DNA from: Candidatus Aminicenantota bacterium
GTDB taxonomy: Bacteria; Acidobacteriota; Aminicenantia; JAMOAD01
DNA length: 22,246 nucleotides
Reading direction: 5' to 3'
Assembly: GCA_027061995.1 (NCBI GenBank)
Contig: JAMOUT010000095.1
Location: 1-22,246 of the forward strand
The translations under genes and the position numbers were made by a program. Numbering within the stretch: the stretch's first letter is position 1; each line of letters starts with the position of its first letter. The notes under the pieces were generated by a model that searched no databases, had not been told where the DNA came from, and saw nothing but the letters and a program-made list of their open reading frames with translations. Below are positions 12,586 through 16,413 of this stretch, one piece after another.

Positions 12586-14076
12586 ATGAAGGGTAATATT
12601 ATTATAAGAAAGAAAAGAGTTTTATTTTTCATTATCTTTTATTTTATTTTTTCATTTGTTTTTTTATTTGCGGAATCAGAATGCAATTGCAATTGTTATA
12701 CTATTATTGTCGGGAGAAAAGCATCGTTGAATGGAAATATTATACTTGCTCATAATGAGGATGACTCAGGTGATAACCTTTTTGTTAATATAAGAAAAGT
12801 AAAAAGAATAAATAATGATAATAAGATAAGCTTAATAACACGAAATGGCACAACCGTAGCAATAAATGGTGCAAAAGCCGAATTATTATGGTTTGAAATA
12901 CCGAACATGGTTTTTGCGGATAGTTTTGTTAATGAATACGGAGTCATTATTGTATCAAATGCTTGTCCTTCTAAGGTTAGCAAAAAAAATAAAAAAGGAC
13001 TTAGATATTTATTAAGGAGATTAGTCGCGGAAAGAGCTCATTCAGCGCGAGAAGCTGTTAAAATCATGGGTGCTCTTGTTGAAAAATACGGTTATGATTC
13101 ATCGGGAAGAACATATTCTATCGCTGATAAAAATGAAGGATGGGTTTTGGAGATAGTTAATGGTAAGTTATGGATTGCACAAAGAGTTGACGATGATAAA
13201 TTAATGGTTATTCCCAATCATTATATAATAAGATATGTTAATTTAAAAGATAAGAACAATTTTATGGGTTCTAAAGATATCATTAGTTATGCTGTTAAAA
13301 ACGGGTTATATAATCCTGAAAAAGGGGGAGAGTTTGATTTTGCAAAAATTTATTCTCATAATTTAAAACACCCGGGGAATATTTACAGACATTGGAGAGG
13401 GTTATCTCTTTTATCGGGCAAAAATTTTACTCCTAATCAAAGATTTCCTTTTCAAGTAAAACCTAATGAAAAAATATCGATCAAGAAACTTTTTAATCTG
13501 CTTAAAGATCATTACGAAGGAACAATATATGATACAACGGATGGATATAAATTGGGTGATCCTAACAAAAAAAATAAATATCGTCCCATATGTGTCTCTT
13601 CTACGCAGTATTCCATAGTTGCCGAATTAAGAGACAATCTTCCCAAACCTATTTCCACTCTATTATGGGTTTCTGTCAGAAAACCTGATACCTCAGTATA
13701 TTTTCCTCTGTATTATGGTGTAAATCCTTTACCTGATGATTTTGGAATGATATATAATAGCGAAAATTATACAGAGCTTTTAAAAAAACATTTTAATCCG
13801 TATATTACACCTTCAAATAATCTCTTATATGAGAGAATAATAAAAACAGAGAAAAAAATAGAAAAAAATTATAATCAAAATATTAATATTGTTTCTCGAA
13901 TAAAAGAAAATCTCCAAAATTATTATATTAAAATTCTTCCATTCTTTGAAGAGTCTTATATAAAAATTTATAATAATGATAAAAAAATGGCTCAAAAGTA
14001 TCTGAATTCCTTTTTTTACGGTGAATATTACTATTTTAAAAAAGGGTTTAAAGATATTAATGAGAAAATAAGATAA
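12586..14076 (+). CDS. Secreted C69-family dipeptidase (Ntn hydrolase)
   Basis: A 496-residue member of the peptidase C69 (PepD-like) family, Ntn hydrolases that use an exposed N-terminal cysteine. After a basic, strongly hydrophobic signal segment (residues 8-29, ending FLFA) comes a C-x-C-x-C cluster (Cys33, Cys35, Cys37). It continues as CYTIIVGRKAS, the typical new N-terminus, so Cys37 is the likely nucleophile. HNEDD (56-60) is the conserved second motif. Family members hydrolyse dipeptides, and secretion fits peptide scavenging. The other two cysteines just before the nucleophile are notable. The ATG at 12586 lacks a Shine-Dalgarno. It precedes the regulator gene by 17 bases. Confidence 0.88.
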   Translation: MKGNIIIRKKRVLFFIIFYFIFSFVFLFAESECNCNCYTIIVGRKASLNGNIILAHNEDDSGDNLFVNIRKVKRINNDNKISLITRNGTTVAINGAKAELLWFEIPNMVFADSFVNEYGVIIVSNACPSKVSKKNKKGLRYLLRRLVAERAHSAREAVKIMGALVEKYGYDSSGRTYSIADKNEGWVLEIVNGKLWIAQRVDDDKLMVIPNHYIIRYVNLKDKNNFMGSKDIISYAVKNGLYNPEKGGEFDFAKIYSHNLKHPGNIYRHWRGLSLLSGKNFTPNQRFPFQVKPNEKISIKKLFNLLKDHYEGTIYDTTDGYKLGDPNKKNKYRPICVSSTQYSIVAELRDNLPKPISTLLWVSVRKPDTSVYFPLYYGVNPLPDDFGMIYNSENYTELLKKHFNPYITPSNNLLYERIIKTEKKIEKNYNQNINIVSRIKENLQNYYIKILPFFEESYIKIYNNDKKMAQKYLNSFFYGEYYYFKKGFKDINEKIR

Positions 14077-14093: not shown

Positions 14094-15512
14094 ATGAAAT
14101 TATTAATAATTGATGATGAAAAAGGGATAAGAGATTCGCTTAAAAAGATATTTTCAAAAGAAAATTTTTTTGTAATTGAAGCTGAAGACGGGATAACAGG
14201 GGAAAAACTTATATTTGAAGAAAAACCGGAAGTTGTAATTGCTGATATAAGAATGCCGGGCAAAAGCGGTATTGATATTTTAAAAAAAATAAGAGAAAAT
14301 CAATTGGCAACCGAGGTGATTATTATTACCGGATACGGAGATATAGAGCTTGCTATTCAGAGCACTAAATTGGGTGCTTTTGATTTTATAGAAAAACCAT
14401 TCTCGCCCGATAGAATAAAGTTAACCGTTAAAAATGCTTTTGAAAAATATTGTCTTAAAAAAACAAGTTATTCCCATATAGAAGAGGAAAAACAAAAGTA
14501 TAGAATCATAGGAGAATCGGATAAAATAAAGAAATTGATAAATCTGATTAAACAAGCGGCAAGAACAAGCTCTACCGTATTAATACTTGGCGAGTCTGGT
14601 TCCGGAAAAGAGCTTGTTGCAAGAAATATCCATTATTTTAGCAATAGGAATTTAAGTCAATTCATATATCTAAACTGTGCGGCCATACCTGAAGAATTGG
14701 TTGAAAGTGAATTATTCGGACATAAAAAAGGTTCTTTTACAGGTGCGATTGATAATAAAACAGGTAAATTCGAAGAAGCTGACGGAGGAACAATATTTCT
14801 TGATGAGATTGGGGATTTATCTCAAAGAGCTCAAGCTAAGGTTTTAAGAGTGATAGAAAACGGAGAAGTTCAAAGAATAGGTGAAAACAGGATAAAACAT
14901 GTTGATGTCAGGATAGTTGCCGCCACAAACAAAAACCTTGTTAAGGAGATTTCAAACGGTAGGTTCAGGCAGGATCTGTTTTACAGACTGAATGTTATTA
15001 CAATAGATGTTCCCCCTTTAAGGGAAAGAAAAGAGGATATACCTGTTTTAATTGAATTTTTTTCAAACAATATTTCCGTCAAGTATGGTGTGACAAAGAA
15101 AGAGTTTGATGAAAAATTATTAAAGTATCTTTCGGAAAAAGATTGGAAAGGGAATGTTAGGGAGCTTAAAAATTTCGTGGAAAGAGTTTATGCTTTTATA
15201 AACAAAAGTGTTATAAGAGTTGAAGATATTTTGCCCCACTGGGATGATAACTCAATATTAATACCTTCTCCCGTAAAATTCAAAGATTACAAAGAGTTTA
15301 TGCTTGAAGCCGAAAAAAGATTTATTGAAAATAAATTAAAAACATATAATTGGAATGTAGCTTTAACCGCACGAAAGATAGGGATGTCTCGCGTTAATCT
15401 GATTAAAAAAATAAATAATTTAAAGATAAAAAATTCCGGGGCAGAGGAGAGATCGCTCCCGCCTGAAGCGGGGGAGGAAAGTCCGAACTCCACAGGGCAG
15501 GGTGCCTTGTAA
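14094..15512 (+). CDS. NtrC-family sigma54-dependent response regulator
   Basis: A 472-residue regulator. The receiver domain (1-120) has acidic residues Asp7/Asp8, phospho-acceptor Asp51, Thr79 and Lys101. The AAA+ domain (about 138-370) has Walker A GESGSGK (166-172), sigma54-contact loop GSFTGA (213-218, serine in place of the commoner alanine) and Walker B TIFLDE (233-238). A Fis-type helix-turn-helix ends near residue 445. It should activate sigma54 promoters on phosphorylation; no partner histidine kinase is in the window. The family normally ends at about residue 445, but here the frame continues to TAA at 15510-15512. Residues 448-472 are thus encoded by the 5' end of rnpB. That tail (GAEERSLPPEAGEESPNSTG) is low in complexity and probably not functional. 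Confidence 0.93.
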   Translation: MKLLIIDDEKGIRDSLKKIFSKENFFVIEAEDGITGEKLIFEEKPEVVIADIRMPGKSGIDILKKIRENQLATEVIIITGYGDIELAIQSTKLGAFDFIEKPFSPDRIKLTVKNAFEKYCLKKTSYSHIEEEKQKYRIIGESDKIKKLINLIKQAARTSSTVLILGESGSGKELVARNIHYFSNRNLSQFIYLNCAAIPEELVESELFGHKKGSFTGAIDNKTGKFEEADGGTIFLDEIGDLSQRAQAKVLRVIENGEVQRIGENRIKHVDVRIVAATNKNLVKEISNGRFRQDLFYRLNVITIDVPPLRERKEDIPVLIEFFSNNISVKYGVTKKEFDEKLLKYLSEKDWKGNVRELKNFVERVYAFINKSVIRVEDILPHWDDNSILIPSPVKFKDYKEFMLEAEKRFIENKLKTYNWNVALTARKIGMSRVNLIKKINNLKIKNSGAEERSLPPEAGEESPNSTGQGAL

Positions 15513-15812
15513 TGCAAGGGTTAGTTTTTAAAACTAATAGGAAAGTGCCACAGAAAACAAACCGCCCCGCACCCACTTTTAAAATCAATTATGATTTTAA
15601 AAGTGGGTGCGGGGCAAGGGTGAAAAGGTGAGGTAAGAGCTCACCGTCCTGATAGTAATATCGGGAGCATGGTAAACCCCACCCGGAGCAAGACTAAACA
15701 GAGATGAAGGGTTGCCCGCCCAATATCTCGGGTAAGTCGCTAAAGATTACGGGTGACCGTAATCTTAGATTAATGATCTCTCTTGACAGAATTCGGCTTA
15801 TACTCTGCCCCG
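15437..15812 (+). ncRNA. rnpB: RNase P RNA (bacterial type A)
   Basis: The catalytic RNA of RNase P, which matures tRNA 5' ends. The ends pair as P1: CGGGGCAGAG (15437-15446) with CTCTGCCCCG (15803-15812), ten perfect pairs. Hallmarks in order are GAGGAAAGTCCG in the 5' strand of P4 (about 15474-15485), GGTGAGGTAAGAGCTCACC (P11 region, 15627-15645), the CCCACCCGGAGCAAG segment (15679-15693) and ACAGAATTCGGCTTA (15786-15800), the 3' strand of P4. The length of 376 is normal. P12 is a long perfect 24-bp hairpin. The first 76 bases overlap the 3' end of the regulator CDS. I found no clear promoter or terminator of its own, so processing from the regulator transcript or an AT-rich internal promoter near 15400-15430 are both open. 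Confidence 0.97.
15564..15615 (+). other. Perfect 24-bp P12 hairpin within rnpB
   Basis: Bases 15564-15587 are the exact reverse complement of 15592-15615, leaving a 4-base loop ATTA. It sits where P12 lies in type A RNase P RNA, just before the GGGTGAAAAGGTGAGG segment. The outer half is GC-rich and the inner half A/T only. Confidence 0.85.
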
Positions 15813-16413
15813 AAATATTTAATTAAGAAAAGCAGAATATAATAATACTTTTTCTCATACTGCATATTAAAATATTAATTTACGAGCACATGGAATCGGA
15901 TAATTTTTTTGTTGGGAAGAAGTTGTTAAAAACAATAAATTTGAATTATTATTTGATGTAAAAACCTATTATTGTCTAATAAATAACTCAATAAGTTGCT
16001 CATAGGTGATTTTTCATCTGATTTATAAAAATGAACAGATTTTTTTATTTGTTTTGTTTCTCTCTTTTACTCACAATTTTACACCTTGTTAAGTGTTTTT
16101 ATTAATATTCAAGCTGTTCAAACCTCAAAGACGGTTTCTACGGTTTTAATATTAAGTGAATATATAATATTGAGATTTAATCCGGGATATATATATTATA
16201 ATTCATGAAAAAGTCTTAAGAAGCGGTTGAATTTTATAAGAAAAATATAAAAATTATTAGAAGGGTGGTGATTTGTTTTAAACAGGCAAATTTTACATTT
16301 TCTCCTTTTTTTCCTATTTTCACATTGTTTTCTATTTTTTCCCTTATTCGAGATTTTGAGTTTATTACCTCTGAATAAAAATTAATTTGTAATGATACAG
16401 TAAGATAGATTTA
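15813..16413. other. 601-base AT-rich region without a confident gene
   Basis: Between rnpB and the 3' end of the S66 gene I see no recognisable protein, tRNA or strong terminator. The longest open stretches are about 46 codons on the minus strand (15929-16066) and about 50 codons on the plus strand (roughly 16220-16375, ending TCTGAATAA). Both lack credible starts and start just after a stop codon. The segment 16290-16350 is strongly pyrimidine-rich (TTTTCTCC, TTTTTTCC, TTTTTTCCC). It may be a decayed gene remnant, or an untranslated region of rnpB. Confidence 0.5.

Follow-up and report, generated by a model that had tools for sequence, protein, structure and literature searches.

Can the same DNA serve for long as both the end of a DNA-binding protein gene and the start of the gene for an essential ribozyme and, if so, how would the two products be obtained separately? 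The question is raised by a 22,246-nt sequence (the window, meaning the whole stretch of DNA analyzed), in which the reading frame of a response regulator passes without a stop into rnpB, the RNase P RNA gene. The first-pass annotation placed the entry into rnpB at 15437 and the stop codon, TAA, at 15510–15512, with 76 nt in common; the ORF reading of the window and the covariance-model match agree with these positions to the base.

The answer we favor, and consider quite likely, is an overlap of three layers (helix-turn-helix codons, promoter and ribozyme), with rnpB transcribed separately and two transcripts produced. Thus, the 3′ end of the regulator gene and the 5′ end of rnpB would have been the same DNA since the common ancestor of most of the class. 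The first layer would be the end of the DNA-binding helix-turn-helix and a tail of 12–30 residues; the second, an extended −10 element of rnpB made of the codons for Gly-Ile-Lys/Met, alongside or replaced by, in some lineages, a TTGACA-17-TATAAA element made of the codons for Ile-Asp-Thr...Leu-Tyr-Lys; and the third, the 5′ strand of ribozyme P1–P4 and the whole of P3. From the embedded promoter, rnpB would be made as its own RNA; such transcripts would lack the regulator's start site and would adopt the RNase P RNA fold. The regulator would be translated from a longer mRNA whose 3′ end includes at least the beginning of rnpB, and ribosomes would halt at a UAA supplied by rnpB, located in L8, or in the P3 loop in the case of many members of a single family. 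The two transcripts, the start site at rnpB +1 and the translation of the tail are what we infer from the sequences compared below.

Regulator and RNase P RNA in the window

The window's regulator has the domains of an NtrC-type protein. Pfam places Response_reg (PF00072) at residues 4–112, Sigma54_activat (PF00158) at 138–304, AAA_lid_14 (PF25601) at 310–383 and HTH_8 (PF02954) at 405–441, that is, receiver, sigma-54 AAA+ and Fis helix-turn-helix in that order. Like other NtrC-type sigma-54 response regulators, it carries the GSFTGA motif, and sigma-54 itself (rpoN) is found in the same genome (PF04552, 3.7e-58). Proteins of this family usually end shortly after the helix-turn-helix, as do the orthologues in the outgroups and in family f4 of the class. 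The window's regulator departs from this with a tail of 25 codons, and an rnpB-encoded tail of 25–30 residues behind the helix-turn-helix sets the overlapping regulators apart from NtrC-type proteins, including their own outgroup orthologues. The short end is usual but not defining, and the assignment to the NtrC type therefore rests on the domains. Directly 5′ of the regulator, at 12586–14076, lies a gene for a C69-family peptidase (PF03577); the window's ORF list shows no histidine kinase gene adjoining the regulator.

The rnpB match is full length (RF00010 model positions 1–367), as expected of a class A RNase P RNA, and is the only RNase P RNA match in the window's genome (Table 1). It is entered at the third base of codon 448, and the last 25 codons of the regulator lie inside it. 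By the RF00010 alignment, the overlap takes in the 5′ strands of P1, P2 and P4 and the whole of P3, and continues into the P8 hairpin as far as the loop. In relatives, the P1 pairing reaches 4–12 bp 5′ of the Rfam start; the true overlap there would thus be about 80–100 nt, and in family f3 the RNA likely starts about six bases after the −10 element. In the window itself, this upstream extension of P1 is broken by a mismatch. Compared with class A RNase P RNAs at large, the rnpB of this class is distinct in that P1 and the putative promoter double as codons and that, in the overlapping lineages, P3 has frame-preserving length steps and a strand bias. Further into the window's rnpB, at 15566–15613, P12 contains a perfect 20-bp inverted repeat, which was flagged as terminator-like for the minus strand.

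Table 1. Features of the regulator–rnpB locus in the window, and copies of the shared segment in genomes where the two genes have parted
Feature	Position	Strand	Basis or remark
Sigma-54-dependent NtrC-type response regulator, 472 aa	14094..15512	+	ORF, Pfam, rpoN in genome
Fis-type helix-turn-helix codons (HTH_8, residues 405–441)	15306..15416	+	Pfam
Linker codons L-K-I-K-N-S, site of the relatives' extended −10 (TGGTATAAT)	15420..15436	+	Degenerate here (AAGATAAAA)
rnpB, RNase P RNA class A (RF00010)	15437..15816	+	Covariance-model match, 303.4 bits (cut-off 100)
Overlap: regulator codons 448–472 and stop / 5′ part of rnpB	15437..15512	+	ORF and RF00010 alignment; 76 nt
P3 of rnpB	15457..15473	+	Species differ in its length, by multiples of three where the frame crosses it
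P8 hairpin of rnpB	15505..15519	+	Loop (L8) provides the regulator's UAA, 15510–15512
Shared copy, G044			122 nt, 89%
Shared copy, G036			94 nt, 81%
Shared copy, G096			126 nt, 75%
Shared copy, G067			140 nt, 80%; regulator about 3.5 kb from rnpB
Shared copy, G008			131 nt, 92%; regulator on another contig
Shared copy, G048			79 nt, 94%
Shared copy, G042			77 nt, 81%

Spread and origin of the overlap

The first-pass annotation had allowed that the assembly might be wrong and that relatives' regulators might end upstream of rnpB, and had proposed a comparison of this junction in sister genomes. We carried it out on rnpB and the DNA 5′ of it in 110 genomes of the class, many of them fragmented drafts, and extended the survey to other classes of the phylum. 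Within the class, the combined objection failed: in 89 of the 110 genomes, from ten families, the orthologous regulator lies directly 5′ of rnpB and its frame ends inside rnpB. The end points fall in L8 in 71 of them (+73 to +90) and in P3 in 18 (+31 to +45, with many f5 members stopping in the P3 loop instead of L8), and nowhere else. The other 21 comprise seven f4 genomes without the overlap, 13 in which the genes have parted (f5, f7, f9 and f12) and one, G030, where rnpB sits at a contig edge; the 50 nt upstream of this last rnpB resemble those of overlapping neighbors. Recurrence on this scale puts the overlap far beyond chance; with 89 assemblies from ten families, faulty sequencing or assembly is ruled out, as is the recent loss of a stop in a single genome.

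Where the overlap came from is suggested by lineages that lack it. In other classes of the phylum, the same regulator is found immediately 5′ of rnpB at 10 of 84 rnpB loci, with its stop 9–128 nt before rnpB; the gene order is thus older, and the overlap derived. The f4 regulators are likewise without an rnpB-encoded tail. In G011, an f4 genome, the regulator's TAA comes 11 nt before rnpB and lies inside a −10-like TAAAAT. On the regulator tree, f4 groups with the outgroups on a long branch, outside the overlap clade, and the overlapping families form one group (f1 with f5, and f6, f2, f8, f3, f11, f12, f9, f10 and f7). The simplest history is an old regulator–rnpB neighborhood in which the stop just before rnpB was probably lost in the ancestor of the class minus f4. 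Since f1 and f5 enter rnpB in another frame than the remaining families, this history also has to include a frame switch or a second origin. The earlier proposal that the regulator had lost its stop is accordingly borne out by the outgroup orthologues and the tail-less f4, although not as a recent accident: the event is old and common to most of the class. Once formed, the overlap would persist because neither gene can lose the shared segment.

A different frame runs into rnpB at locus L152 of genome G157 (same phylum, family f14), where a membrane-glycosyltransferase-like ORF from about −1499 to +58 extends 58 nt into the RNA gene. No such long frame is listed for the f14 relatives G170 and G143, and this overlap may be a separate, recent event.

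Frame-keeping in P3 and the parting of the genes

We took the length of P3 as the distance from TCGC to GAGGAAAGT. In f2, f3, f6, f7, f8, f10 and f11, it is 20, 23, 26, 29, 32 or 35, all of which are 2 modulo 3; in f1 it is 21, or 0 modulo 3, as required by the differing entry frame of that family. The outgroup lengths are spread 24/34/26 over residues 0, 1 and 2. Among changes inferred on the regulator tree, 12 of 15 in overlapping lineages other than f5 are multiples of three, as against 6 of 43 in the controls, with the caveat that these parsimony counts come from one tree and that one or two events hinge on how ties are resolved. The controls are P12 in the same genomes (5 of 22; Fisher p = 8e-4), P3 in non-overlapping lineages (1 of 11; p = 5e-4) and P3 in f5, where the frame mostly stops early (0 of 10; p = 9e-5). 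Of the three non-triplet changes, one separates f1 from the remaining lineages, whose entry frame differs, and two involve G126, where the regulator reading ends early, within P3.

What would be lost with the frame can be read from the sequences. Frame GAG+0 ends 39 nt past GAGGAAAGT in 73 of 83 genomes, and the other two frames at medians of 118 and 128 nt; loss of frame may have been selected against since ribosomes out of frame would run on for these longer distances. P3 also shows a pyrimidine/purine strand bias (0.90 in genomes with the frame running through versus 0.59 in outgroups, genomes being treated as independent), by which stop codons are removed, and in overlapping genomes it holds TCT/TTC and GAA triplets.

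The same composition feeds the main rival to selection on the frame. In stems rich in TTC/GAA-like triplets, slippage could by itself favor steps of three. It is conceivable, if rather unlikely, that the overlap is passive: after a single stop loss, rnpB and its promoter would be conserved only on their own account, the tail would be junk that is tolerated, and P3 would change by triplet slippage. Both the bias and the triplets agree with this, as does the free variation of the amino acids encoded by P3, which are weakly constrained, third positions being slightly more variable. Several observations argue otherwise. First, in f9, P3 measures 28, 30, 30, 31 and 33 where the regulator has moved away and 29 where the frame runs through. 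Second, f5, with its early stops, makes none of its ten changes in steps of three. Third, the read-through members of f1 and f5 have P3 lengths that fit their own entry frame. Furthermore, the strand bias excludes stop codons and may itself result from selection. We retain the three-layer overlap, with its frame probably under selection, and would note that P3 of RNase P RNAs in this class is not to be read as though shaped by RNA constraints alone.

The 13 genomes in which the genes have parted show what becomes of the shared segment. In all 13, the regulator retains an rnpB-like tail, and in seven a plain DNA copy of the segment is seen, of 77–140 nt and 75–94% identity (Table 1). In f9, the DNA copy is weak, and the tail peptide and matches of 13–28 nt remain; the regulators of f9 and of G095 retain rnpB-like peptides, e.g., TAGVGET. 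Tail peptides more generally are exemplified by those around GEESPNSTGQDGR. The rnpB copies, for their part, lose the frame after separation. It thus seems that regulator and rnpB can part only through duplication of the segment they have in common, and the copies then tend to specialize, each shedding the function of the other.

Retention of the tail also raises the possibility that it is a working part of the regulator, for instance a stability or contact element, and that the protein rather than rnpB maintains the overlap. Separated regulators of f9, f12, f7 and f5 indeed keep the first 7–12 residues of the tail (TAGVGET, ADEESP). The tail is, however, absent from the f4 and outgroup orthologues, variable in both length and sequence in its P3 part, and shortened in f5, and we regard this explanation as doubtful.

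Some class genomes contain a second, short or partial RNase P RNA-like match (G008:C250:18862-19050, G051:C18:33770-33973, G036:C50:6415-6503, G100:C48 and G139:C37). All score below the family cut-off; they are possibly decayed rnpB copies or relatives.

A candidate rnpB promoter in regulator codons

In the three-layer overlap, the promoter of rnpB has to be sought in codons. When applied to the window by itself, a sigma-70 scan gave no plus-strand promoter. At the expected site, the window retains an ATA codon (15426–15428), and its extended −10 is poor, with three mismatches in eight; for the window's own genome, the argument for an embedded promoter would be drawn from its relatives. Judged by codon bias and consensus match across the class, the sequences qualify as ORF-embedded promoters (promoters inside coding sequence), the window being a weak case.

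In the relatives, Gly-Ile-Lys/Met immediately 5′ of rnpB is encoded as GGT ATA A.. much more frequently than the same genes predict. With the expectation taken from the rest of the same genes and genomes treated as independent, Ile is ATA in 48 of 54 genomes (expected 10.6) and in 21 of 21 in f5 (expected 3.7), a total of 69 of 75 against about 14, and Gly is GGT in 34 of 51 (expected 6.9) and in 17 of 17 in f5 (expected 2.9). In the separated f9 regulators, the same test gives 0 of 4. The extended −10 TGGTATAAT, allowing one mismatch in eight, is found in 49 of 83 genomes versus 2.5% of background windows, at a position mostly fixed per family (−16 in most, −21 in f5). A TTGACA-17-TATAAA-like element is also present in the last helix-turn-helix codons of relatives. 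There, the Tyr of Leu-Tyr-Lys is not preferentially encoded by TAT (20 of 54 overlapping genomes, expected 32.6), so the argument for this second element comes from relics and from some lineages.

Those relics are found beside rnpB in parted genomes: six sequences of TTGACA or TTGACC, 17 nt and TATAAN, five of them with a single mismatch in 12, compared with 0 of 600 background windows. The relic promoter resembles, and by its position probably descends from, the helix-turn-helix codons for Ile-Asp-Thr-Pro-Arg-Ser-Asn-Leu-Tyr-Lys. On the regulator side, seven copies (G036, G096, G016, G053, G120, G122 and G049) keep Gly-Ile with GGT ATA changed to GGC ATC; in f5, GGTATAATG is retained by the copies of G008, G044 and G042, which match closely. 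Taken together, the promoter of rnpB appears, as far as sequence can tell, to be written in the last codons of the regulator.

It had also been suggested at first pass that rnpB is cut from the regulator transcript. On that account, rnpB would have no promoter of its own, and the level of RNase P RNA would track expression of the regulator. There is no space for a terminator between the genes, and the poor −10 of the window would fit. Nevertheless, the codon bias for TGGTATA(AT) lies exactly where a promoter is expected, promoter relics stay with rnpB once the regulator is gone, and the rnpB genes of f4, which have no overlap, sit behind TGGTATAAT or a similar −10. We thus do not favor processing as the source of rnpB and think it has a slim chance of being right, although some readthrough transcripts that need processing are possible. 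The first-pass annotation had further proposed that ribosomes might interfere with RNase P folding and that regulator expression might be linked to tRNA maturation. Improbable to a like degree as processing is a switch, in which a ribosome on the readthrough transcript would unfold P1–P4 up to L8, full-length RNase P RNA would form only when the regulator is untranslated, and tRNA maturation would be tied to the two-component signal.

Our search of open-licence papers found no report of a protein gene overlapping rnpB in this way, and the nearest parallels are of two kinds. Small RNAs such as DapZ, MicX, MicL, ArgX and ApcZ have ORF-embedded promoters at mRNA 3′ ends (PMC9438474). As in those cases, a non-coding RNA would arise here from a codon-made promoter at the 3′ end of a protein gene and have sequence in common with the mRNA. 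Unlike those regulatory RNAs, the product is by homology the RNase P ribozyme, for which Hfq-bound trans-acting behavior is not expected; moreover, the frame enters 5′ strands of the catalytic domain, takes its stop from the RNA and is kept through indels class-wide. In Thermus, rnpA and rpmH overlap and have control signals in common (PMC9841429). That case likewise has an RNase P subunit gene in overlap with a second gene, but the two are protein genes that overlap where they share translation starts, whereas here a ribozyme gene overlies the end of a regulator gene.

The interest of the locus is that a protein gene has long overlapped a ribozyme that is both essential and widely conserved, and that the ribozyme's promoter would lie in the last codons of a DNA-binding protein. 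It offers a natural record of how such an overlap may form, by stop loss beside a promoter, and be held by frame-keeping indels in a ribozyme helix, and also of how it is undone, the shared segment being copied and the copies then tending to shed each other's function. In practice, automated gene calling in this class is bound either to add a tail that is spurious or to cut off one that is real.

At two of the parted loci, L029 (G049) and L106 (G095), a small GC-rich hairpin (GAGCCG-GCAA-CGGCTC and GCGGC-GCAA-GCCGC) lies between the relic TTGACA-17-TATAAG and rnpB, within about 35 nt upstream, which suggests that rnpB RNAs started at the upstream promoter carry a structured 5′ leader.
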